A DNA stretch of 22,206 nucleotides, from the NCBI GenBank assembly GCA_016932035.1, contig JAFGDR010000039.1:1-22206 (forward strand). The letters are read 5' to 3'. Numbering within the stretch: the stretch's first letter is position 1; every line of letters starts with the position of its first letter. The notes under the pieces were generated by a model. It was not told the DNA's origin, did no database searches, and saw only the letters and a program-made list of their open reading frames with translations. This document shows positions 3,927 through 15,109 of the stretch, in pieces. Source of the DNA: Candidatus Cloacimonadota bacterium. GTDB lineage: Bacteria > Cloacimonadota > Cloacimonadia > JGIOTU-2. The translations under genes and the position numbers were made by a program.

Positions 3927-4421
3927 ATGAGAATCTTTAAAAGAAGCGTTTTGCTTTTTATCTTTCTTTTCCTCATCTGGTTCCTTCTTACAGGATTCAA
4001 AACTCAGGAACTCATTGCTGGTGCAGTCGTTGCACTCCTTATTACGGTGATCTATAATTCGCAAACACTGGCATTCGAAGAGTTTAAATTAACCCCCAAA
4101 TCTTTTGTATACAGCATTATTTATATTTTCATTTTTATCATCGAGCTTTTAAAATCTAATTTTGATGTTGCATCCCGAGTAGCCAGCCCCACTTTGCCGA
4201 TCAATCCCGGCATAGTGAAAGTGAAAACAAAATTGAAATCAAAAATGGGGCGTCTCATTCTTGCAAACTCAATCACTCTAACCCCTGGCACGTTAACAGT
4301 GGAAACAAAAGACGAGTTTTTTTACATTCACTGGATCAATATTTCTACTGAAAATATTGAAGATACAAGCAAAGAAATCATTTCTCGTTTTGAACGATAC
4401 CTGGAGGTGATCTTTGGCTGA
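3927..4421 (+). CDS. MnhE/MbhA-type subunit of ion-translocating complex
   Basis: This is the first gene of the respiratory-complex operon, 164 residues, with a strong GGAGG site before ATG. It belongs to the MnhE (Mrp antiporter E) family, called MbhA or MbxA in membrane-bound hydrogenase and Mbx/Mbs complexes. Three hydrophobic segments lie in residues 8-80. The family hallmark LANSITLTPGTLTVE sits at 112-126, followed by FYIHWINI. The subunit is a small membrane component of the Mrp-like module that couples electron flow to cation movement. Its 3' end overlaps the next gene by 8 bases, which suggests translational coupling. Confidence 0.9.
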   Translation: MRIFKRSVLLFIFLFLIWFLLTGFKTQELIAGAVVALLITVIYNSQTLAFEEFKLTPKSFVYSIIYIFIFIIELLKSNFDVASRVASPTLPINPGIVKVKTKLKSKMGRLILANSITLTPGTLTVETKDEFFYIHWINISTENIEDTSKEIISRFERYLEVIFG

Positions 4422-4674
4422 AGTTATTATTTCAATTGCTGGTTACATAGCGCTTGGAGCTCTTGCACTTTCATTTATTCGAATGATCATTGGACCGACC
4501 ACTGCGGATAGAGCTGTTGCGTTGGACACCATGACCATCATCAGTATTTCTTTGATCGCATTTATTGCATCGAGGTCGATGAAGATCATTTATCTTGATG
4601 TTGCAACGGTCTATGCACTTATCAGTTTTCTTGGTGTTATCGCTGTTGCCCGTTACATTGAAAGGGGGATTTAA
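4414..4674 (+). CDS. MnhF/MbhB-type subunit
   Basis: An 86-residue membrane protein of the MnhF/PhaF family (MbhB in Mbh). Three hydrophobic segments are present, and the family block GPTTADRAVALD lies at 27-38. Translation is taken from TTG at 4414 because a GGAGG site sits 6 bases upstream and the protein aligns from its second residue; no ATG is available near. The start lies inside the end of the preceding gene. The stop codon TAA overlaps the next ATG by one base. Confidence 0.88.
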   Translation: MAEVIISIAGYIALGALALSFIRMIIGPTTADRAVALDTMTIISISLIAFIASRSMKIIYLDVATVYALISFLGVIAVARYIERGI

Positions 4675-5024
4675 TGAATCTCCTCGATATTATCGGCGCA
4701 ATTATAACACTGATCGGTTCGCTGTTCCTGCTTCTTGGTTCGATCGGGATCCTGCGCATGCCCGATGTGTATAACAGAATGCAGGCAGGAACAAAAGCTA
4801 CGACGCTGGGAAGCATGCTTTTCCTTCTTGGACTTGGTCTTTCATATATTGAATGCGGATGTATCGGCAGGATTATTATTTTGATCCTCTTTATCATTTT
4901 TACGAATCCAATTTCATCTCATGCGCTTGCACGTGCAGCCCATCATGCTGGTGTGAAGCTGACTGAAAAATCAGTACGGGATAATCTCCGGGATGATGAA
5001 CAAAAGGAAGGAGCTCGAACATGA
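4674..5024 (+). CDS. MnhG/MbhC-type subunit
   Basis: A 116-residue protein of the MnhG/PhaG family (MbhC in Mbh). It has three transmembrane segments and the typical blocks GILRMPDVYNRMQAGTKATT (25-44) and NPISSHALARAAH (78-90). The C-terminal tail after residue 95 is charged and cytoplasmic-looking. It starts on the last base of the preceding stop and ends in an ATGA overlap with the next gene. Confidence 0.9.
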   Translation: MNLLDIIGAIITLIGSLFLLLGSIGILRMPDVYNRMQAGTKATTLGSMLFLLGLGLSYIECGCIGRIIILILFIIFTNPISSHALARAAHHAGVKLTEKSVRDNLRDDEQKEGART

Positions 5025-5278
5025 TCATTGCATTTATTATTGTTTTAGGAATCATCATGATCCTTGCTGCCGTCATTGCTGTGATGTCAAAGAATCTCCT
5101 TACTGCGATCATTGCTTCTGGTGTGATCAGTCTTCTTGCGAGCATCATCTATCTCATTCTTTCTGCACCTGATGTAGCAATGACCGAAGCTGCAATCGGT
5201 TCGGGACTTACAACAATAGTCTTCCTCTATGCCCTCAGCAGAATAAAGAAGATCAACAGGGAGGTGGATGATGATTAA
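5021..5278 (+). CDS. MbhD-type subunit (DUF4040, MrpA C-terminal-like)
   Basis: An 85-residue membrane protein with three hydrophobic helices. The block APDVAMTEAAIGSG (about 49-62) identifies the DUF4040/MbhD family, which corresponds to a C-terminal piece of MrpA. In the solved archaeal complexes this subunit sits in the Mrp-like module. It starts in a 4-base ATGA overlap and its end overlaps the next gene by 11 bases. A GAAGGAG site lies upstream. Confidence 0.85.
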   Translation: MIIAFIIVLGIIMILAAVIAVMSKNLLTAIIASGVISLLASIIYLILSAPDVAMTEAAIGSGLTTIVFLYALSRIKKINREVDDD

Positions 5279-5963
5279 GCGCATACTGATCATTGCAATT
5301 CTCATTCTCATTGTTGTCATCTTTCTTCCTTTTGTGAAAAATATTGTTTTGAAGGATTCACTCAATTCTCTCTCATCAGATTATATCGAAACCACCTCCA
5401 AGGATCTCAAGGCTGCAAATATTGTAACTGGGGTTGTTGTCACATTCCGTGGACTCGATACCCTTGGCGAGGTTACGGTTCTGTTCATTGCGACTGCCGG
5501 AGTTGGTTTTCTGCTTCGAAGAAAGCATGAAAAGAGCGGCAAAGTTAAAAAGCGTCCTGCTTCTGAGATTCTCTCGACAGGAGCATCATTCCTGTTTCCG
5601 CTGGTGATCTTTTTTGGCGTGTATATTTTTCTTCACGGACATCTCACACCGGGTGGTGGTTTTCAGGGAGGTGTTATCATTGCATCTGCATTCCTTCTTC
5701 TCCTTCTTTCAAATATACATTTTCAATTCAATCATAATATTCTGCATTGGGTTGAATCACTTTCGGGTGCAATCTATGTGCTGCTTGGGTTACTTGGATT
5801 GATCTTACTCGGTAGTTTTCTCGATCCCCGCTTCCTTCCTCTTGGCACACTTGGTAAATTGTTGAGTGCCGGCGCAATTCCACTGATTTACTCGTTTATA
5901 GGACTAAAAGTCGGCTCGGAACTCAGTAATATATTGGACAGCTTGAGAGGAGCAGAAGAATGA
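5268..5963 (+). CDS. Fused MbhE-MbhF-type subunit (MnhB domain)
   Basis: A 231-residue membrane protein made of two parts that are separate genes (mbhE, mbhF) in Pyrococcus Mbh. Residues about 5-90 resemble MbhE and the end of MrpA, with NIVTGVVVTFRGLDTLGE (51-68). After a basic linker (85-100), residues 105-228 are an MnhB domain with HGHLTPGGGFQGG (123-135) and four hydrophobic helices. As I remember it, Mbx/Mbs complexes carry this same fusion as subunit F. Either of two adjacent ATGs (5268, 5271) could be used; the GGAGG site is spaced better for the second. Confidence 0.85.
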   Translation: MMIKRILIIAILILIVVIFLPFVKNIVLKDSLNSLSSDYIETTSKDLKAANIVTGVVVTFRGLDTLGEVTVLFIATAGVGFLLRRKHEKSGKVKKRPASEILSTGASFLFPLVIFFGVYIFLHGHLTPGGGFQGGVIIASAFLLLLLSNIHFQFNHNILHWVESLSGAIYVLLGLLGLILLGSFLDPRFLPLGTLGKLLSAGAIPLIYSFIGLKVGSELSNILDSLRGAEE

Positions 5964-6313
5964 GATATACATTGATCCTCGGTTTCGTGCTGTTCATAAT
6001 AGGTCTTTGGGGAATGTTGACTCGGAAGAATCTCTTTAAGATCGTCATCGGCTTTTCTATAATCGATACAGGCATACATCTCATCATCGTTACCATTGGC
6101 TACTTGAAGGGAAAAACCGCACCAATTTTAGATAAGATGGTTACTCCCGGCAATGCAGTCCAGAAGGTTGTCGACCCCATTCCTTCTGCACTTGTTCTTA
6201 CTGCCATCGTTATAGGGCTCGCAGTAACAGCACTTATGCTCAGTTATATCGTTCGACTTTACAAACATAAAAGATCTTTGTCGATTGAAGATTACAGGGA
6301 GTTGAAATGGTAG
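5960..6313 (+). CDS. MnhC/NuoK-type subunit (MbhG)
   Basis: A 117-residue NuoK-like protein of the MnhC family (MbhG in Mbh). Three transmembrane helices and the diagnostic block VDPIPSALVLTAIVIGLAVT (71-90) are visible. Between helices 2 and 3 there is a loop (about 50-70) longer than in NuoK proper, as usual for MnhC. It overlaps its upstream neighbour by 4 bases and its downstream neighbour by 7. Confidence 0.9.
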   Translation: MRYTLILGFVLFIIGLWGMLTRKNLFKIVIGFSIIDTGIHLIIVTIGYLKGKTAPILDKMVTPGNAVQKVVDPIPSALVLTAIVIGLAVTALMLSYIVRLYKHKRSLSIEDYRELKW

Positions 6314-9300
6314 AACCAATCTTGATTTTTATCCTCTTTCTTGGGGCAGCATTCCTTTTAGCTCTGTTTGACAAAGTTCATAGAAATCTTTCTCTTTCGA
6401 TCTTTTATGTCATTCTAATTGTTTCAACGCTTATCGCAGGAGAGTGGCTTTACAGGTTTATTTTTTCTTCTCAGCAGCCGGTCATGATCTTCACTGCTGG
6501 ATTCAAACCACCTCTTTCAATTAATTTGCGAATGGGTATGGAAGAAGCATTTCTTCTCTTTTCGGTCAATCTTGCAGGACTTCTCAGCGCTCTTTATCTT
6601 AAGAGAACATTCTCTGAATCCAAAATTTATCCGCTCATCCTTTATCTTATGATGATCATGGGAGTGAACGGTATGGTAATGACCCGCGACCTGTTCAACT
6701 TGTTCGTTTTCATGGAAATTTCATCGATCTCGACCTATGCTATGATCACCCTGAAAGAGAACGAACTGCGACTTGCTTCGGGTTTTAAATACATGATCGC
6801 CAGCGGACTTGCGTCAGTATTGTTCCTCCTTGGCACGATATTTATATATCATGCAACCGGAACCTTAAATATCGATCAAATCATAGCGCAGAAAAGTCTC
6901 TTTGCTACCTCAATCGGATTTCTCTCTGTTTTCACACTCTTCACGTCATTGATCATCGAACTGAAACCCTTCCCTGCAAATGGCTGGGCTCTCGATGTAT
7001 ATCAATCGACAACCTCCGGAATTGTCTCGATCATCGCAGTTGTAAACTCAGCTGGTGTATTTTTTGCTCTCTATAAACTCCTTCCGCTTATTTCTCATGC
7101 ACACCTGCCGTACATTGCAGGGATCGGTCTAGTCTCTTTCCTTTTCTCAAATCTTGTTGGTCTCAGGCAAACTGATGCAAAACGTCTCCTTGGATATTCA
7201 TCAGTAGCACAGATAGGTTTGCTTATTACCGTTACAGCACTGACGAGATATCTGCATATCAAAACCTCGGCTTCACTTTTCATCATTGCTAGTATCTTTA
7301 TCAGCAATTTCATCGCGAAAGCCGGTCTGTTCTGGATTGCCGGTATTATAAAGAAACGGCTTATTAACGAGTGGGGAATTCTCAAACATCATTCCGGATT
7401 ACTCATCATGTTCGGAATTTTTATATGTGCTCTTATCGGCATCCCACCTTTCCCGAATTTCTGGGCGAAGTGGGAACTGGTACGGTACCTTGCGCTCTCA
7501 AAACTGCATATCTGGATAATTCTGATATTACTCGGTTCGCTGTTTGAAGCATGCTATCTTTTTAGATGGTTCGGAAAAACTATAAAAGCAGAAAGTGTTT
7601 CAAATCCAGTAAAAGCCCCAGTTTATAAAGAGGTACCTTTGATCGTTTTCTTTATTGCTTTGATCGCCATATCACTCGGAATTCCCATAAAAATATATAG
7701 ATTTGATATTCTTCCAATGTTTCCGGTATTAGGATTTTTGATTCTGTATGTACTCGATTTTCTTCCATCCAAGATCAAAGCTCTTATTTCAATGATACTT
7801 ATTGCAGGATACACTTACTACATCTATCCAATGCTTTCAGGACTCGGCTTGATCTTTGCCTTCATATTTCTTGCAGGAAGCTTCATCCAGCTTATTGCGA
7901 CAATGAACAGAACGGAGTTGGAAAGAGGTTTCTTTCCCTTCCTCGTTGGATTGATTGTATCGATGGGTTCGATGCTGGTTGCACGAACATCTCTTGAATT
8001 CTTCTTTGCCTGGGAGATCATGACGATTTCGGCTTATATGCTTGTTCTTCGCGGTAAAAACGCAGAAAAACCATCACTGCTTTTTATTTTGTTCTCCCTT
8101 GCCAGCGCTTATCTGCTGCTTGGTGGATTAAGCTATGCCCACAATATTGAGTTCTCGCTCGCCGGCTTAGGCTCAATTCCCATTTCTGCAAACATACTTC
8201 CAATATCTGCCTTCATCCTGATTGTTCTCGGTTTTCTTATTAAGGTCGGAGCTATTGGACTTCATATCTGGCTTCCCGGTTCATATGCAGAAGCAGAGGA
8301 TGATACGACATCTTTCATGTCATCTATCATGAGTAAAACCGGGATATTCGGGATATTACTAATGCTTCTCTTCCTCCTCAACATGAACATGTCCCACTCT
8401 GCATTACTTACAAGTATGCTTGGATGGATCGGCATTTTTACGATTTTCTTTGGTGCTCTTATGGCAGTGTTCCAGGAGGATGTGAAATATCTTCTCGCAT
8501 ATTCGAGTATGGGACAGCTTGGATATATCGTTCTCTGCCTTGCTGCAATGTCTCATCTTGGTTGGGTTGCAGGTTTATATCTAGCTGTAAACCACCTCTT
8601 TTTCAAAGGCATGATACTTCTTGCTGTTGCTGGAATCATTTCACGAGTTAAAACGAGGAATATGTACGAAATGGGAGGATTGATCAAAAAAATGCCTTTC
8701 TCTTTCATCTCTGCTCTTATTGGAATTATTGCACTTTCAGGCGTACCGCCGCTATCGGGTTTTGGCGCAAAATGGCTTATCTATACCTCACTTCTTGAGA
8801 AAGGGTGGTATTTTCAGGCAGGTTTGAGTTTCTTCGCCAGTGCAATTGCTTTCCTTTATCTTTTCCGCCTGATTCATACTATTTTTCTTGGGCAACTAAA
8901 ACCGCAGCATAAAGACATCAAAGAAGCATCGCTATTTATTTTAATCCCTCAATTTATATTTATTTTCGCAATTATGGCAATATCGATGTACCCGAGTTTG
9001 ATCATCAAACCATTAAGTAGTTTTATCAATCCATATCTTCCTGCAACTATTCAATGGCAGGGAAACACACTGTACAGCAGTTTGGGATACTGGAATGGCA
9101 ACCTTGTCATGTACGTGACAATGGGTGTGTTTATGCTGCCGCTCATCTGGTTGATCGTATCTATTGGTAAAGTGACAAAGGTAAAACAGTTCAACATTGT
9201 TTATGCTGCCGAAAGACCTTTTACTCCTTCGACAACACATTTTGCACATAATTTTTATGCACATTACAAGCGAGCTCTCGGAACATTTGTACGACCGTTG

Positions 9301-9447
9301 GTGACAGGATTCTGGAATAGTGTTGGAGAATGGATCCAGTCGATTGGAGGAACGATCAGACAGATTTATTCCGGCAATGGTCAAACATATATCCTTCATA
9401 TCCTGATCTACTTCGTTGTCCTCTATTTCATCATGGGAGGTAAGTAA
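6307..9447 (+). CDS. Double proton-antiporter subunit (MbxH-H' fusion)
   Basis: A 1046-residue polytopic protein with two complete MrpD/NuoN-type antiporter modules in one chain, about twice the length of MbhH. Module 1 (about 1-480) keeps the helix-5 Glu137 (FVFMEISS), the helix-7 Lys220 (ELKPFPANGW), Lys338 (FIAKAG) and Lys388. Module 2 (about 490-905) keeps Glu570 (FFAWEIMT), Lys646 (FLIKVGAIGLHIWLPGSYAE), Lys767 (FFKG) and Lys822. All these acidic and basic residues are of the kind that forms the central ion pathway. Residues 930-1046 add a TM helix, an amphipathic stretch and a final TM helix, resembling the NuoL tail or MbhI. Mbx/Mbs complexes have two such subunits, H and H', as separate genes; here they are joined. 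Both modules look competent for Na+ or H+ transfer. The frame is open throughout. Confidence 0.9.
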   Translation: MVEPILIFILFLGAAFLLALFDKVHRNLSLSIFYVILIVSTLIAGEWLYRFIFSSQQPVMIFTAGFKPPLSINLRMGMEEAFLLFSVNLAGLLSALYLKRTFSESKIYPLILYLMMIMGVNGMVMTRDLFNLFVFMEISSISTYAMITLKENELRLASGFKYMIASGLASVLFLLGTIFIYHATGTLNIDQIIAQKSLFATSIGFLSVFTLFTSLIIELKPFPANGWALDVYQSTTSGIVSIIAVVNSAGVFFALYKLLPLISHAHLPYIAGIGLVSFLFSNLVGLRQTDAKRLLGYSSVAQIGLLITVTALTRYLHIKTSASLFIIASIFISNFIAKAGLFWIAGIIKKRLINEWGILKHHSGLLIMFGIFICALIGIPPFPNFWAKWELVRYLALSKLHIWIILILLGSLFEACYLFRWFGKTIKAESVSNPVKAPVYKEVPLIVFFIALIAISLGIPIKIYRFDILPMFPVLGFLILYVLDFLPSKIKALISMILIAGYTYYIYPMLSGLGLIFAFIFLAGSFIQLIATMNRTELERGFFPFLVGLIVSMGSMLVARTSLEFFFAWEIMTISAYMLVLRGKNAEKPSLLFILFSLASAYLLLGGLSYAHNIEFSLAGLGSIPISANILPISAFILIVLGFLIKVGAIGLHIWLPGSYAEAEDDTTSFMSSIMSKTGIFGILLMLLFLLNMNMSHSALLTSMLGWIGIFTIFFGALMAVFQEDVKYLLAYSSMGQLGYIVLCLAAMSHLGWVAGLYLAVNHLFFKGMILLAVAGIISRVKTRNMYEMGGLIKKMPFSFISALIGIIALSGVPPLSGFGAKWLIYTSLLEKGWYFQAGLSFFASAIAFLYLFRLIHTIFLGQLKPQHKDIKEASLFILIPQFIFIFAIMAISMYPSLIIKPLSSFINPYLPATIQWQGNTLYSSLGYWNGNLVMYVTMGVFMLPLIWLIVSIGKVTKVKQFNIVYAAERPFTPSTTHFAHNFYAHYKRALGTFVRPLVTGFWNSVGEWIQSIGGTIRQIYSGNGQTYILHILIYFVVLYFIMGGK

Positions 9448-10361
9448 TGGATACTCCCCTTCTTCTCAAAATACTCTATGCAATCATCTCCCTTGGGGTG
9501 ATAACGATCTGGGGACTCACACTGAATGGAGTTGTTCGCAAAATCTATGCACGCGTGCAGGGAAGGATAGGACCTCCTTTCTGGCAGCCGTTCATCGATA
9601 TTATCAAAACATATGGAAAGAGGACAGCTGTCGCTCACGGCATCATGTTCTTCCTGGGACCAGTCTTCAGGATAGCAGGCGGGATCGGTACATATTTGTT
9701 CATCCCTGCCATTATCGGTTCAACTGTTTTCAGCAATTTCAGTGTTTCAGGCGACGTTTTGCTGGTTATGTATTTCATATTTTTCGGACAGCTTGGTATG
9801 GCGTTGGGGGCTGGAGAGAGCGGTCATCCCTACAGTGCGATCGGTGTTGCTCGCGGACTTGCGCAGATGACTGCATTCGAAGTTCCTTTTGCTCTATCCA
9901 TTATTGCGCTTGCAATACAATATAAGACCCTGAACATCACTGCGATTATAATGGCTCAGCAGGGAGGATTCCTCAACTGGACGATCTTCACGAATCCCTT
10001 GGCAACGATCGCTGCACTTATCGCTCTTCTTGGCATGAACATGCATAATCCTTTCAGCGTTGTGCTTGCACCACAGGAAATTCCCATCGGACCACCTACA
10101 GAATTTCACGGCAGTTATCTTGGTCTTATGCAAACGAACAGAGGTATTTTTAATGCAGCAAAACTCGTCCTGTTCATGAACCTCTTCTTTGGTGGAGCGA
10201 CAAATATCTTTGCCATGATCATCAAGACCTTTGCTATTTATATGATATCTGTGATCGTCGGTGTTTCGTTCCCGCGATTCAGAGTAGATCAATCGATCAA
10301 ATTTTTCCTGTCCGTTCCTGCAGTTATCGCACTGATCTCAATTATATTATTGATCATTTAA
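9447..10361 (+). CDS. NuoH/MbhM-type membrane anchor subunit
   Basis: A 304-residue protein of the complex I subunit 1 family, which anchors the peripheral electron-transfer arm to the membrane. GRIGPPFWQPF (39-49) is the family signature. Glu145 lies in AFEVPFAL. The cytoplasmic loop APQEIPIGPPTEFHG (208-222) contains conserved acidic residues, and SFPRFRVDQ (274-282) matches the last signature. About eight hydrophobic helices are present. It starts on the last base of the preceding stop codon with GGAGGT upstream. Its place before the NuoB-like gene, not after the large subunit, follows Mbx order as I recall it. Confidence 0.92.
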   Translation: MDTPLLLKILYAIISLGVITIWGLTLNGVVRKIYARVQGRIGPPFWQPFIDIIKTYGKRTAVAHGIMFFLGPVFRIAGGIGTYLFIPAIIGSTVFSNFSVSGDVLLVMYFIFFGQLGMALGAGESGHPYSAIGVARGLAQMTAFEVPFALSIIALAIQYKTLNITAIIMAQQGGFLNWTIFTNPLATIAALIALLGMNMHNPFSVVLAPQEIPIGPPTEFHGSYLGLMQTNRGIFNAAKLVLFMNLFFGGATNIFAMIIKTFAIYMISVIVGVSFPRFRVDQSIKFFLSVPAVIALISIILLII

Positions 10362-10371
10362 GGATTTTTTT

Positions 10372-10992
10372 ATGAAAAAAGAACATAAATCATTACTAAA
10401 TACTGATTTACCGGATTTTGAACGCGACTACTTCTGTGATACATATCCTCAGGAAGTTAAACCACTCAAGGGCTTCATTGAAAAGTTCCTTAACTGGGCT
10501 CGGGCTCAATCATTGTGGATATTAGGATTTGGAACCGGCTGTGGGGCAATCGAGCTTCGTCCTCTGATGACTGCTCGTTTTGATATGTTTCGTTATGGAA
10601 TGGCTCCCAGACCAACTCCCCGACAATCATGTGTTTTCATCATCGGAGGGTATGCATCGATTAAGACACTGAAGCGTATTGTTCGAAGTTATGAGCAAAT
10701 ACAAGCCCCGAAATTTGTGCTTGCACTTGGAAGCTGTACGATCAATGGCGGCATGTACTTTGATTCTTATAACACGATCAACCGAATCGACCATTACATT
10801 CCGGTCGATGTCTATGTTACGGGTTGTATGCCTCGTCCCGAAGCCATTATAGCCGGTTTGAGAAAACTCCAGGAACGTATTATGCAGGGAAAAGCAGAAA
10901 AGGCAAATGATTATATTAAAAATTTTGAATGGTACAAAGCAAATCAGAAAAAGATCATCAAAGATTGGAATATGCCAGATTTTAACTGGTAG
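10372..10992 (+). CDS. NuoB/MbhJ-type small subunit, altered cluster site
   Basis: A 206-residue protein of the complex I 20-kDa and hydrogenase small-subunit family, which holds the [4Fe-4S] cluster next to the active site. The family features are GAIELRPLMTARFDMFRYG, GSC (Cys122), INGGMY and VTGCMPRPEA (Cys152). The N-terminal ligand site reads TGCGAIE: one Cys (57) where complex I has the CC pair and hydrogenases have CxxC. An additional Cys87 lies in PRQSC, a place usually Ala or Ser followed by Asp. Four cysteines (57, 87, 122, 152) are therefore available, but not in the usual pattern. The C-terminal 30 residues are lysine- and aromatic-rich. An AAGGA site precedes the start. Confidence 0.9.
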   Translation: MKKEHKSLLNTDLPDFERDYFCDTYPQEVKPLKGFIEKFLNWARAQSLWILGFGTGCGAIELRPLMTARFDMFRYGMAPRPTPRQSCVFIIGGYASIKTLKRIVRSYEQIQAPKFVLALGSCTINGGMYFDSYNTINRIDHYIPVDVYVTGCMPRPEAIIAGLRKLQERIMQGKAEKANDYIKNFEWYKANQKKIIKDWNMPDFNW

Positions 10993-11003
10993 AAGGTAAA
11001 GAA

Positions 11004-11540
11004 ATGAAAGAATTACTCCAAAGATTATCCGATAGATTTTCCCTTAAAGAAATTACCTATCAACGTGATAATCTTATATTCATTACAGTAGAAAAGAGCA
11101 ATGTTATACCGTTTATTACCCATCTGAAACAGCATGAAAACTTCTCGCATCTCGTGATGATCGGTGCAGTCGACTATATCGAGAACGGAACATTCCAGCT
11201 TACATATCTTCTTCATAACTACTCGTTACATGCAGATATCGGAGTGCGTGTTCATGTTCAGCGAGAGAATCCGGTCATGGAATCAATCCATACAATATGG
11301 GCACAAGCGAGAACCTATCAGCGCGAAATTCGTGAGATGTTCGGTATCGATTTCCCGGGAAGTCCCGATGTTGACAAACCATTCCTTCTTGAAGGCTGGC
11401 AGAACATTCCCCCAATGCGCAAGGATTTTGATACGCTGAAATACTCCCAGGAAACCTATTTTCCCCGCTCCGGAAGAAAACATTACGATCCTCAAAATTA
11501 TATGAAACAAAAGCTGTACCCGGACAAGGAACCGGAATAA
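11004..11540 (+). CDS. NuoC/MbhK-type subunit (complex I 30-kDa)
   Basis: A 178-residue protein of the respiratory-chain 30-kDa subunit family, a structural part of the peripheral arm that packs against the large subunit. The signature region is easy to see: REIREMFGIDFPGSPD (107-122), then FLLEGWQNIPPMRKDFD (127-143). The N-terminal 100 residues form the usual alpha/beta domain. Soluble, no metal ligands expected. It begins 11 bases after the NuoB-like stop with AAGGTAAAGA upstream. Confidence 0.9.
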   Translation: MKELLQRLSDRFSLKEITYQRDNLIFITVEKSNVIPFITHLKQHENFSHLVMIGAVDYIENGTFQLTYLLHNYSLHADIGVRVHVQRENPVMESIHTIWAQARTYQREIREMFGIDFPGSPDVDKPFLLEGWQNIPPMRKDFDTLKYSQETYFPRSGRKHYDPQNYMKQKLYPDKEPE

Positions 11541-11553
11541 TCACAGAGGTTTT

Positions 11554-12723
11554 ATGGAAGATTTTAATCGAGATAAATTTCCCCCTATCGTCAATGGAAA
11601 ACCGATCATAGACCTTGATTCTCAGAAATTTTTGAAGGTTTGGCAGGGTCCTCAACACCCGGGTGTTACCGGTAATATGGCTCTGGAAGTGACACTTAGC
11701 GGAGATGAAGTTGTTGATCTAAAAACTCATGTCGGATACCTCCATCGCGGATTTGAAAAACTGATGGAACGAAGGAAATATTTGCAATGCTTCACTATCG
11801 TATGCAGAATCTGTGTGCCCGAACCTGATACGAACGAATATGTTTTTGCTGCTGCTGTTGAGGATCTTGCAGGTATTAAGGTTCCTGAAAAAGCACTCTG
11901 GCTTAGAACGCTAACCCTTGAAATGTCTCGTCTGGCGAGTTTTCTTATGTGGATCGGCGGTCAGGCAGGTTCTCTTGGAATGGGTACGATTGCCCAATGG
12001 ACTGTCGCCCAGCGCGATTACATTCTCGACCTTTTTGAAGAATTAACAGGAGGAAGAGTGTATCACATGTATATCGTTCCGGGTGGTGTACGTGGCGATG
12101 TTCCTGAAGGCTTTTTCGAACATGTTGAAGATGTAATGAAAGGTGTGGAAAAGGTACTCGCTGATGTAGAAATTGCCCTGCTCAACAATGCAATTTTCAA
12201 AAAAAGAGCAAAAGGACTCGGTATTATTTCACAAGACATGGTCGATGAATATGGCATCGTGGGACCGAATGCACGTGCAGCAGGATTCGTAAGAGATATC
12301 CGAAAGGACACACCCTATGCTGCATATGACCAGCTGGATTTCACTGTGATAACAGGAACAAAATCTGATGCTCTTGAACGAACATACGTACGCTTTCAGG
12401 AAATGCTGCAATGTGTGTCTCTCATACGACAAATTGCTAGGAGGATACCGAAAAAGGGAGCATTGTATACACAAATACCCAATCCGCTTCACTGGAAAAT
12501 TCCTGCCGGCGAAACGTATATTCGGGCTGAAGCGTCACGGGGAGAATATGGTTATTACATGGTTTCCGATGGTTCTGAATATCCAAGAAGAGTACAAGTA
12601 CGTGGACCAAGTTATACCCATGCAATCGCAGTTTTGGAAGAACTGGCTGTCGGAACGAACCTGGCCGACCTCGCAGGACTGATGGTCTCCCTTCATACCT
12701 GCCCACCAGAAATCGAGAGGTAA
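11554..12723 (+). CDS. NuoD/MbxL-type large subunit lacking full NiFe ligands
   Basis: A 389-residue soluble protein of the NuoD/hydrogenase large-subunit family. The N-terminal half includes VGYLHRGFEKLMERR (60-74) and an intact CxxC (Cys84, Cys87; VCRICVPEPDTNEY). The C-terminal half ends exactly in the family motif, VSLHTCPPEIER, where hydrogenases have DPCxxC. Cys383 is kept, but the last ligand is Glu386. Three of four NiFe-binding cysteines therefore remain, unlike NuoD, which has lost all four, and unlike true hydrogenases. No maturation-protease extension follows the motif. This mixed pattern points to an Mbx/Mbs-like enzyme, proposed in Pyrococcus to reduce polysulfide or sulfane sulfur, and not to H2 chemistry. 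The active-site substrate here is an inference. It starts with AGAGGT upstream, 13 bases after the previous gene. Confidence 0.9.
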   Translation: MEDFNRDKFPPIVNGKPIIDLDSQKFLKVWQGPQHPGVTGNMALEVTLSGDEVVDLKTHVGYLHRGFEKLMERRKYLQCFTIVCRICVPEPDTNEYVFAAAVEDLAGIKVPEKALWLRTLTLEMSRLASFLMWIGGQAGSLGMGTIAQWTVAQRDYILDLFEELTGGRVYHMYIVPGGVRGDVPEGFFEHVEDVMKGVEKVLADVEIALLNNAIFKKRAKGLGIISQDMVDEYGIVGPNARAAGFVRDIRKDTPYAAYDQLDFTVITGTKSDALERTYVRFQEMLQCVSLIRQIARRIPKKGALYTQIPNPLHWKIPAGETYIRAEASRGEYGYYMVSDGSEYPRRVQVRGPSYTHAIAVLEELAVGTNLADLAGLMVSLHTCPPEIER

Positions 12724-12725
12724 TC

Positions 12726-14504
12726 ATGAAATTGAAAGACTGGATTTCACCTTTTTATGTATGGAAACGCGCATTTGAAAAACCCTTTACAGTTCCAAAA
12801 CCTCTGGATGAAAGACCCGGGTCTTCACGATATAGAGGATTTCATAAGAATGATCTTGAAAAATGCATAGGATGCGGAACCTGCTCCTCGATCTGTCAAA
12901 ATCATGCAATCGACATGGTCCCTGTGGAAGGCATTGAAACAACCAAAGGTGACAGCGGATTACGTCCGAGGATTGATTACGGACGCTGCTGCTGGTGTGC
13001 ACTATGTGTCGACATCTGCCCGACAACATCGCTTTCTATGAGCAACGAATATTTATGGATAGACACTGATGCAGAAGTATTCAGATTTATACCGGGTGCA
13101 GAAAATAAACCATGGGATAATGTACAGGAAGGTTATACACGAGAAGAATCATATCATATTGTTGATCCTGAGCGTGTTACAATGGAAATGCTACCTCCGG
13201 ATGAGCGTGTTAAATCATTCCTTGAAATGGTTAAAGGATACTCAAGAGAACAAGCCCAGAAAGAAGCTGACCGTTGTATCCAATGTGGAATCTGCACCGC
13301 TACCTGTCCTGCTCATATGGATATTCCCGGATATATTAAAGCTGTTCGAGAAAACAATATAAAAGACGGTCTTAAGCTCATGTATGAGACCAATCCTATG
13401 CCTGCAATGTGCGGACGTGTCTGCACACACCAGTGTGAGGACGTTTGCGCATTAGGTCATTCCGGTGATCCTATTTCGATCCGATGGCTCAAGCGATACC
13501 TTGCAGATCAGGTTGAGCTTGATGACTATGCAAAAGCAATGCTGGTCGCGATAGATTCAAACGGAAAGCATGTCGCCATTATCGGGGCTGGACCCGGCGG
13601 TTTGAGCGCTGCTTATTATTTGCGATTATTGGGTTATGATATTACAATTTATGAAGCCAAAGACTATGCAGGCGGCATGACGCGATACGGAATCCCTGAA
13701 TATCGTCTCCCCTATGACCAGCTTGATAAAGACATATCATATATTCTTTCACTCGGTATAAACATTCAGTATAATACCCGTGTAGGTGAAGACATCACTT
13801 TCGAACAGGTATATACTTCATTTGATGCAGTCTTGATTTCAGTCGGATTACTTACTCCCTACAAGATGGAAATTCCCGGAGAAGAACTGCCCGGCAACAT
13901 CTCAGGACTTGAAGTTCTTGATATGGTAACGAGAGGTGAAAAAGTATATTTTGGAAATAGAGTAGCTGTGATCGGTGGCGGAAACGTCGCCATGGATGCT
14001 GCACGAACCGCTCGAACTTTTGGTGCAGATGTCACACTTTTATATAGAAGAAGGATCGAGGATATGCCTGCTGACGAAGAAGAGATCATCGATGCGGAGC
14101 ATGAAAAAGTGGAGTTTATCACACAAGCAATACCACTTCGTATCGAACAAACTGAGGATAACAAGCTTCGTTTTATCTTTGGTTTGGCAGAAATGGTCGA
14201 TCAGGGAGACGAAAAGAGACCACGGCCTGTTCTCATAGAAGGTAAAGAACATTCGATCGATGTAGATATGGTGATCTCGGCAATCGGTCAAGGTGCAGAT
14301 TTTTCATTCCTTCCAATGCATTATGAAGCACTTTTCAGCAGAAGGAATCAATTGAAGATCGATGAATTTTGCAGAACAAACGATCCAAAAATATTCGCTG
14401 CAGGCGACATTGCAAACAAAACAAAAGATGCAATCAGCGCCATTGCTGATGGACATCGTGCAGCAAAAACGATCGATCATATGCTACAAAAAGAAGGAAT
14501 ATAA
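12726..14504 (+). CDS. NuoI-ferredoxin/NfnB-GltD flavoprotein fusion subunit
   Basis: A 592-residue protein in the place of the NuoI/MbxN ferredoxin subunit. Residues 1-110 are NuoI-like, with two [4Fe-4S] motifs (Cys47, 50, 53, 57 and Cys88, 91, 94, 98; Cys89 is extra). Residues about 155-260 match the N-terminal cluster domain of the GltD/NfnB family (Cys184, 187, 190, 194; then CGRVCTHQCEDVC, Cys229-241). Residues 280-590 are the flavin reductase: FAD motif GAGPGG (287-292), second nucleotide motif GGGNVAMDAA (417-426), YRRRIEDMPADEEE, and GDIANKTKDAISAIADG near the end, which holds FAD. The family uses NADPH or NADH to pass electrons to ferredoxin, sulfur or a partner enzyme. Fused here, it would give the membrane complex its own NAD(P)H site. 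Coenzyme preference cannot be read from the sequence. It follows the large subunit by 2 bases with AGAGGTAATC upstream. Confidence 0.92.
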   Translation: MKLKDWISPFYVWKRAFEKPFTVPKPLDERPGSSRYRGFHKNDLEKCIGCGTCSSICQNHAIDMVPVEGIETTKGDSGLRPRIDYGRCCWCALCVDICPTTSLSMSNEYLWIDTDAEVFRFIPGAENKPWDNVQEGYTREESYHIVDPERVTMEMLPPDERVKSFLEMVKGYSREQAQKEADRCIQCGICTATCPAHMDIPGYIKAVRENNIKDGLKLMYETNPMPAMCGRVCTHQCEDVCALGHSGDPISIRWLKRYLADQVELDDYAKAMLVAIDSNGKHVAIIGAGPGGLSAAYYLRLLGYDITIYEAKDYAGGMTRYGIPEYRLPYDQLDKDISYILSLGINIQYNTRVGEDITFEQVYTSFDAVLISVGLLTPYKMEIPGEELPGNISGLEVLDMVTRGEKVYFGNRVAVIGGGNVAMDAARTARTFGADVTLLYRRRIEDMPADEEEIIDAEHEKVEFITQAIPLRIEQTEDNKLRFIFGLAEMVDQGDEKRPRPVLIEGKEHSIDVDMVISAIGQGADFSFLPMHYEALFSRRNQLKIDEFCRTNDPKIFAAGDIANKTKDAISAIADGHRAAKTIDHMLQKEGI

Positions 14505-14506
14505 TT

Positions 14507-15109
14507 ATGTTTACGGATTCTGGATTGATCTCATACGGCCTACTTCCTCTCCTTATATTTCTCTCTCGTATCTTTGATGTTTCGCTGGGCACGCTCCGCA
14601 TCATCTTTGTCAATCGGGGGATGAAGTTCCTTGCTCCCATCATCGGCTTTTTTGAAGTGTTCATCTGGCTGGTGGTGATCGGACAGATCATGCAGAATCT
14701 TACGAATATCACAAATTATATTGCTTATGCCGGCGGGTTTGCTATGGGCAATTTCGTGGGAATCCTTCTCGAACAAAAACTTGCAATGGGAATCGTTCTC
14801 CTTCGTATCATCACGATGAAAAAAGCAAAGGAACTGATAGTGTATTTCCGCGGACTTGGCTATCGTGTGACCCACGTTCCTGCAGAAGCAAACGACGGAA
14901 AAGTAGAGATCATCTTTATCCCTATCAAAAGAAAGGATATTAGATCTGTTATCGAAGCAATACGAAAATATAACGAGAACGCGCTTTACACATTTGAGGA
15001 TGTTCGAGCTATCAGCGAATGGGCAATACCTGGAAGAAAAAAACGTCATCTTGTACCCTCTTTCAAAGCATATCCGCACTTGTTCAAATTTAAACGCAAA
15101 AGCAAGTAA
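14507..15109 (+). CDS. UPF0316 membrane protein (DUF5698/DUF2179)
   Basis: A 200-residue protein two bases after the flavoprotein fusion, with GAAGGAA upstream. The first 100 residues contain three hydrophobic helices with the family-typical RIFDVSLGTLRIIFVNRG. Residues 105-170 are a DUF2179 domain, a small alpha/beta domain thought to bind a ligand on the cytoplasmic face. The last 20 residues are strongly basic. The function is unknown. The position suggests cotranscription with the respiratory complex, but the family is widespread and need not be linked to it. Its stop overlaps the next start by one base. Confidence 0.85.
   Translation: MFTDSGLISYGLLPLLIFLSRIFDVSLGTLRIIFVNRGMKFLAPIIGFFEVFIWLVVIGQIMQNLTNITNYIAYAGGFAMGNFVGILLEQKLAMGIVLLRIITMKKAKELIVYFRGLGYRVTHVPAEANDGKVEIIFIPIKRKDIRSVIEAIRKYNENALYTFEDVRAISEWAIPGRKKRHLVPSFKAYPHLFKFKRKSK

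Follow-up and report, generated by a model that had tools for sequence, protein, structure and literature searches.

A NuoI-flavoprotein fusion in bacterial Mbx as a putative NAD(P)H-linked input subunit, with signs of exchange of its FAD/NAD(P) domain between lineages

One relative of the complex considered here is MBS of Pyrococcus furiosus, which takes ferredoxin electrons at a NuoI-type subunit; the sole ligands of its proximal cluster are C28, C93 and C123, C25 being too distant to coordinate, and polysulfide reduction has been placed at the open iron of this cluster (PMC7684303). The Mbx complex of Thermotoga maritima has also been described with ferredoxin as donor (PMC9431562). The name ferredoxin:NADP oxidoreductase was given to Mbx first; results on the archaeal enzyme later led to the name ferredoxin:sulfane reductase. 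The archaeal result is not simply transferable, because the bacterial form, found in about 15 phyla, has a predicted NAD(P)H site of its own. A second point of reference is StnC of the Sporomusa StnABC enzyme, whose flavin does not bifurcate but hands electrons from NADPH singly to a chain of clusters (PMC10482914). In a literature search with most subscription journals outside its coverage, we found no paper on the flavin half or the NuoI-GltD subunit of bacterial Mbx. Here, we analyze a 22,206-nucleotide stretch of DNA (the window) from a 2.44 Mb draft genome of a Candidatus Cloacimonadota bacterium that is 95% complete (GCA_016932035.1, contig JAFGDR010000039.1).

The gene at 12726-14504 is one intact ORF of 592 codons with an ATG start and zero internal stops, and 3 bases lie between the stop of the NuoD-like gene and its start. 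Three sets of Pfam domains follow one another along the chain, namely, Fer4/Fer4_9/Fer4_7 at residues 43-101, Fer4_20 at 161-263 and Pyr_redox_2 at 282-576, which bears out the proposal of the sequence-only reading that a NuoI-type ferredoxin and a flavoprotein with predicted FAD and NAD(P) sites are joined in a single polypeptide. The gene is the 12th and final member of a contiguous same-strand Mrp-Mbx operon (3927-14504) in the order MnhE, MrpF, MnhG, MbhD, MbhE/MnhB, MnhC, double MrpD, NuoH, NuoB, NuoC, NuoD and the fusion (Table 1). All 12 genes could be matched to the make-up of the Mbx/MBS branch (Mrp-type arm, MbhD/MbhE, antiporters and NuoH/B/C/D/I). The two antiporter-like genes, where complete, are fused throughout the window's clade, which is marked by GTGC in NuoB, and are separate in the CTGC clade; the sole "fused" antiporter call in the latter (L091) looks like overlapping long ORFs. 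No sulfur gene was recognized beside the operon within the window, and no plasmid copy of the fusion was found. Directly behind the fusion, at 14507-15109, lies a gene for a DUF5698/DUF2179 membrane protein, a neighborhood seen only in the window and in one genome of the same genus (L024).

Table 1 Operon members in the window and sites within the fusion gene
Feature	Position	Strand	Evidence
MnhE/MrpE-like subunit (MbsA position)	3927..4421	+	PF01899 E 4.7e-41
MrpF-like subunit	4414..4674	+	PF04066 E 1.4e-15
MnhG/MrpG-like subunit	4674..5024	+	PF03334 E 1.5e-26
MbhD-like subunit	5021..5278	+	PF13244 E 4.6e-23
MbhE + MnhB fused subunit	5268..5963	+	PF20501 and PF04039
MnhC/NuoK-like subunit	5960..6313	+	PF00420 E 4.3e-26
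Two antiporter-like subunits (MbsH' and MbsH types), single 1046-aa chain	6307..9447	+	PF00361 twice in ORF
NuoH/MbsM-like membrane anchor	9447..10361	+	PF00146 E 3.4e-51
NuoB/MbsJ-like subunit, predicted proximal [4Fe-4S] cluster	10372..10992	+	best PDB match MBS 6u8y_J
NuoC/MbsK-like subunit	11004..11540	+	PF00329 E 2.4e-29
NuoD/MbsL-like large subunit without Ni-binding CxxC pairs	11554..12723	+	best PDB match MBS 6u8y_L
Fusion of NuoI, Fer4_20 and FAD/NAD(P) reductase, 592 aa	12726..14504	+	NF010590, residues 2-590, 702.9 bits
NuoI-type dicluster ferredoxin cysteines (residues 47-98)	12864..13019	+	Pfam, homologue alignment
Fer4_20 domain, 8 cysteines and Lys256 (13491-13493)	13206..13514	+	PF14691 E 1.4e-31
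FAD- and NAD(P)-binding half (residues 280-592), invariant Arg327	13563..14501	+	PF07992 E 7.3e-38
YRRR motif (residues 440-443)	14043..14054	+	alignment

The first question is whether such a fusion is peculiar to the source genome. The NCBIfam model NF010590 (PRK13984, "putative oxidoreductase") aligns with the protein over its full length, although the score stays under the curated cut-off of 946 bits, which the named control T. maritima exceeds; the window gene thus appears to be a divergent relative of this family and not a formal member. A scan with NF010590 of 98 genomes from the class of the window and from closer relatives revealed 37 fused-gene places, 30 of which were fetched as loci, and a NuoD gene of the MbxL type adjoins the fusion in all 37. 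Among the 80 loci obtained from named genomes, 66 carried a fused ORF, adjoining NuoD in 62 cases; the other four comprised two at or near contig starts, one with a doubtful GltD match (L101) and one orphan (L082). The named loci with the fusion belong to about 15 phyla, including Pseudomonadota, Spirochaetota, Bacteroidota, Chlorobiota, Acidobacteriota, Bacillota and Thermotogota. In the last phylum (81 genomes), the fusion was found in 60 genomes and MbxL in 61, with the two genes side by side. One complete Mbx operon, which we take to be that of T. maritima MSB8, an identification with which the control result agrees, ends in a fused ORF of 619 aa. The fusion is therefore the norm in bacterial Mbx, T. 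maritima included, and the suggestion that it might not be known elsewhere falls away. The window shares with the family the gene order, the fused last gene and NuoB and NuoD of the MBS type, while it differs from T. maritima in having YRRR instead of SLE, both MrpD units in one chain instead of separate genes and Gly at the Cys25 position (CTGC in T. maritima). A frame error or a chimeric assembly, for which the draft state of the genome is the sole argument, has a practically negligible probability, and we regard it as ruled out, because independent assemblies have yielded fused loci more than 150 times, far above what chance would give.

The survey of NuoI-GltD proteins beside mbxL homologues that the sequence-only reading had called for also yielded unfused states. 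In nine loci of Thermoproteota (L160-L168), an Mbx-type NuoD is accompanied by a NuoI of about 152-163 residues in a different gene order, and none of the nine has a GltD-like gene within the stretch examined; MbsN of P. furiosus has 208 aa. The archaeal loci examined encode a short NuoI without a flavoprotein, so that fusion is associated with bacterial Mbx and its absence with archaeal Mbx/MBS. The generalization that ferredoxin subunits of such complexes are short thus holds for Mbh and archaeal MBS, but not for bacterial Mbx, in which the subunit is usually fused. The sole unfused bacterial case that we found is a genome placed by its NuoD as a relative of Mesoaciditoga (G178, L173 2013-2800), in which an intact NuoI ends in a stop and is followed by shortened, stop-ridden remnants matching both ends of the flavin half of a fused locus (L074), with NfnA- and NfnB-like genes next to them. 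This locus looks like a natural loss of the flavin module. Since two loci with an intact fusion (L074 and L075) have an NfnB-like gene downstream as well, an "adjacent GltD" arrangement, in the cases observed, represents Nfn beside Mbx and not a split precursor of the fusion. A GltD-like gene beside Mbx-like genes, suggested earlier for Thermotoga-type genomes, is accordingly not a general feature of them. The orphan, in a gammaproteobacterial contig (L082 9950-11746), retains 16 of 16 cysteines; no Mbx gene was found within the 13 kb examined, which is a counterpoint to the linkage of fusion and complex.

The next question concerns the kind of complex to which the fusion belongs. In comparisons with PDB, both core subunits matched MBS best, with 213.7 bits for NuoB (next match, complex I, 140.4 bits) and 321.6 bits for NuoD (complex I, 233.6), well above the scores against complex I or Mbh, in agreement with the Mbx-like context claimed earlier. 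NuoB keeps the three MBS proximal-cluster cysteines as Cys57, Cys122 and Cys152, and the position of MBS Cys25 is occupied by Gly54 (GTGC), a Cys-to-Gly change that maps to a single event in the window's clade on the NuoD tree. NuoD contains the motifs RICVPEPD and CPPEIER, as in MbsL, and keeps two MBS cysteines, while the other two of the four Ni positions have no Cys; the quinone residues H38 and Y87 of Nqo4 are replaced, as in MBS. These features indicate an MBS-like catalytic core, and the likeness to P. furiosus MBS and archaeal Mbx extends to the best matches of NuoB, NuoD and NuoI within the complex I superfamily, the lost Ni ligands and the three proximal-cluster cysteines, whereas the archaeal NuoI is short (about 150-208 aa), the archaeal operon is without a flavoprotein and its gene order is unlike that of the window. 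The complex I-type core is shared with group 4 [NiFe] hydrogenases (Mbh/Ech), an identity that we reject because of the absent Ni ligands; a true group 4 hydrogenase is encoded elsewhere in the same genome. Respiratory complex I was likewise rejected, as the operon lacks NuoE, NuoF and NuoG and both Nqo4 positions are altered, and so was Rnf, since no rnf gene occurs among the Pfam matches of the operon and the RnfC of the genome lies on another contig. NuoB also has an extra cysteine, Cys87 (PRQSC), present in 2 of 56 aligned NuoB rows, window included, where MBS has Asp and relatives mostly D, N or S. Either chance or a role as a fourth cluster ligand could explain it; in the latter case, the open iron of the NuoB cluster would be removed.

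The fusion itself carries eight NuoI-type cysteines (residues 47, 50, 53, 57, 88, 91, 94 and 98) and eight GltD-type cysteines (residues 184, 187, 190, 194, 229, 233, 237 and 241), in keeping with the two NuoI-type motifs and two further cysteine groups noticed from the sequence. In an alignment of 100 homologues, 98-99 show the same residue at each of these 16 cysteine positions and at Lys256 and Arg327, and every deviation is a gap. The AlphaFold2 model of the fusion (pLDDT 90.4, pTM 0.85) was used in a fold search whose rows covered residues 144-592, and the best match was NfnL (5jfc_L; residues 144-589, Z 47.4, 437 residues, 1.9 A). The likeness to NfnB/NfnL (5jfc, 4ylf) thus comprises the fold and a conserved arginine, Arg327 matching R201 of NfnL, but Glu126 of NfnL corresponds to Lys256 in the fusion. 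Lysine occupies this site in 52 of 52 aligned fusions and in 99 of 100 aligned rows (the remaining row is a gap), and Lys170 of StnC occupies the same position. At the end of the nucleotide-binding strand lies YRRR, a motif common to the NADP(H)-binding NfnL and the Stn/NfnABC chains. The other motif class at this site, L-E/D, present in 66 other rows, is probably of the NAD type, as an acidic residue at the end of the nucleotide-binding strand generally favors NAD; T. maritima has SLE and no YRR motif. With StnC and NfnABC (8oh5, 9bov, 9n5u), the window shares the cluster-adjacent Lys, a complex I-type ferredoxin partner and the NADP-type motif, while the partner of the GltD module is NuoI of a membrane pump in one case and NuoG of a soluble bifurcating enzyme in the other. 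Judged by these residues, the flavin half resembles the non-bifurcating StnC rather than NfnB, and the NfnB label given to it earlier does not fit.

What could such a subunit do in an Mbx complex? We propose that electrons enter through it into a complex I-type ion pump belonging to the MBS branch. Oxidation of NADPH would take place at the FAD predicted in the C-terminal half, and electrons would pass singly through the two Fer4_20 clusters and the two NuoI clusters to the proximal cluster of NuoB, a wiring suggested by the order of the domains together with the NfnL, StnC and MBS structures. With three cysteine ligands, the NuoB cluster would have one open iron, at which a sulfane substrate such as polysulfide could be reduced in the chamber formed by NuoB, NuoD and NuoH, and this reduction would drive Na+/H+ movement by the Mrp-type membrane arm. 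Because the coupling chamber of the superfamily lies at the NuoB cluster, electrons would have to pass NuoB to drive pumping; this holds for a path from NAD(P)H to sulfane, but a path that starts at ferredoxin and reaches NAD(P)+ by way of NuoI and the flavin would leave NuoB out. That the fusion serves Mbx as an NAD(P)(H)-linked input module is very probable, as supported by the one-to-one linkage with MbxL in the Cloacimonadota and Thermotogota places, and StnC may serve as a structural precedent for a GltD module feeding a complex I-type ferredoxin chain. The full chain, from NADPH input down to sulfane reduction with ion pumping, comes close to an even chance without reaching it. An NADP-type motif would suit a sulfur acceptor energetically, since NADPH is in vivo more reducing than NADH; nevertheless, by textbook potentials, the redox gap between NADPH and polysulfide is small and may not pay for pumping. 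Transcription of mbxA of T. maritima is up 4.36-fold on S0 (PMC9431562), although these data come from a species whose flavin half is without the YRR motif. The flavin half may also be dispensable, given the Mesoaciditoga relative with NuoI and a decayed flavin half.

The older alternative, also put first in the sequence-only reading, is that reduced ferredoxin is the donor and that the flavin reduces NAD(P)+, with the energy released spent on pumping, as proposed for Mbx in the Thermoanaerobacter (PMC3608648) and Caldanaerobacter (PMC4596419) papers. Such a Fd:NAD(P)+ oxidoreductase would account for the nucleotide site and draw on a larger redox gap than that from NADPH to sulfur, and mbx and rnf of Thermoanaerobacter reportedly occur in separate clades, as if interchangeable (PMC3608648). 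However, electrons running from ferredoxin over NuoI or Fer4_20 to FAD would never reach the NuoB coupling chamber, the conserved MBS form of the NuoB cluster and the chamber residues would be left without a role, and Rnf, which is also encoded in the source genome, would already cover this function. Because the path would bypass the coupling site, we consider this pump unlikely, and less likely than the sulfane-reducing pump with NADPH input. Equally unlikely is a dual-input sulfane reductase in which ferredoxin and NAD(P)H feed one wire and the flavin half is an extra entry or a valve between pools: the NuoI part at which MBS accepts ferredoxin electrons is conserved in the fusion and stays intact in the relative with the decayed flavin half, but the flavin half of a fused chain may cover the face at which ferredoxin docks.

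Two further readings start from the relatives of the two halves. If the flavoprotein bifurcated in the manner of Nfn, NADPH electrons would be split between ferredoxin and an acceptor of higher potential; the close NfnL fold and the invariant Arg327 speak for this reading, but the Glu126 ligand is replaced by lysine, as in StnC, which is non-bifurcating at that flavin, and no NfnA gene occurs in the operon, the NfnAB-like pair of the genome being separate. Bifurcation on the pump is therefore disfavored and quite improbable. A minimal complex I in which GltD replaces NuoEFG, acting as an NAD(P)H:quinone oxidoreductase, would be in line with the overall complex I type of the subunits and with hosts such as Sedimenticola and Tropicimonas, which have quinones; as NuoD offers no equivalents of Nqo4 H38 and Y87, which are absent in MBS too, we consider it highly improbable. 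Returning to the NADPH-input sulfane-reducing pump, if the flavin half indeed feeds the complex, many anaerobes and sulfur-oxidizing symbionts would possess an ion pump that is linked to NAD(P)H and distinct from both Rnf and complex I.

Another important question is whether the two halves of the fusion share one history. On the NuoD tree, the window's GTGC clade is recovered as one group (support 100), as it is with the NuoI half (98), whereas the FAD/NAD(P) half rejects this grouping (log-likelihood difference 403, AU p = 5e-70) and groups rows by nucleotide motif instead (support 99). The grouping by motif is in turn rejected by NuoD (p = 4e-153) and by the NuoI half (p = 9e-4). All trees were built by a quick method, with SH-aLRT as the sole support measure. 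The motif groups were defined with the trees already in view, a circumstance that the AU test does not correct for, while the clade-A test group was defined by NuoD. Mean identities follow the same pattern: one group of Cloacimonadota and others (group X) shares 75% with window-type rows in NuoI and 41% in the FAD/NAD half, as against 57% and 65%, respectively, with clade B rows. Windowed identity places the crossover between residues about 140 and 330. Thus, the trees and identities indicate that Mbx lineages have exchanged the FAD/NAD(P) domain and that the NuoI half has remained with its complex, a domain exchange that we report here as new. Since the fused GltD halves form one group versus other GltD-like proteins (support 94, or 99 without L058), the simplest reading is a single origin of the fusion followed by exchange of the C-terminal part. 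The combined picture, in which bacterial Mbx would be an NAD(P)H-driven sulfane-reducing ion pump whose FAD/NAD(P) domain and nucleotide signature were repeatedly swapped by intragenic recombination, is tentative and short of even odds. The fusion itself is ordinary among bacterial Mbx; what merits further work is the NAD(P)H-input reading and the domain exchange, and the natural swaps and the decayed copy provide ready-made tests.

Besides Mbx, the source genome encodes RnfC, the NfnAB-like pair, a Stn-type three-gene set and the group 4 hydrogenase, so other ferredoxin-NAD(P) routes are available to it; no [FeFe] hydrogenase was found in this genome. The group 4 [NiFe] hydrogenase operon (contig C31, L115) keeps RICGIC and DPCYCC and lies near a membrane pyrophosphatase. 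Mrp-linked group 4g hydrogenases have been reported in Cloacimonadota (PMC8542988), and part of this call might be Mbx, because Tenebribacter mawsonii has the Mbx fusion (L036). A second, distant Mbx type was observed in two genomes (L029 on contig C5 of G005 and L022 on contig C204 of G009); in both, a further NuoD-like gene lies at a distance of about 3 to 5 kb, which may reflect a hydrogenase operon beside the Mbx operon.
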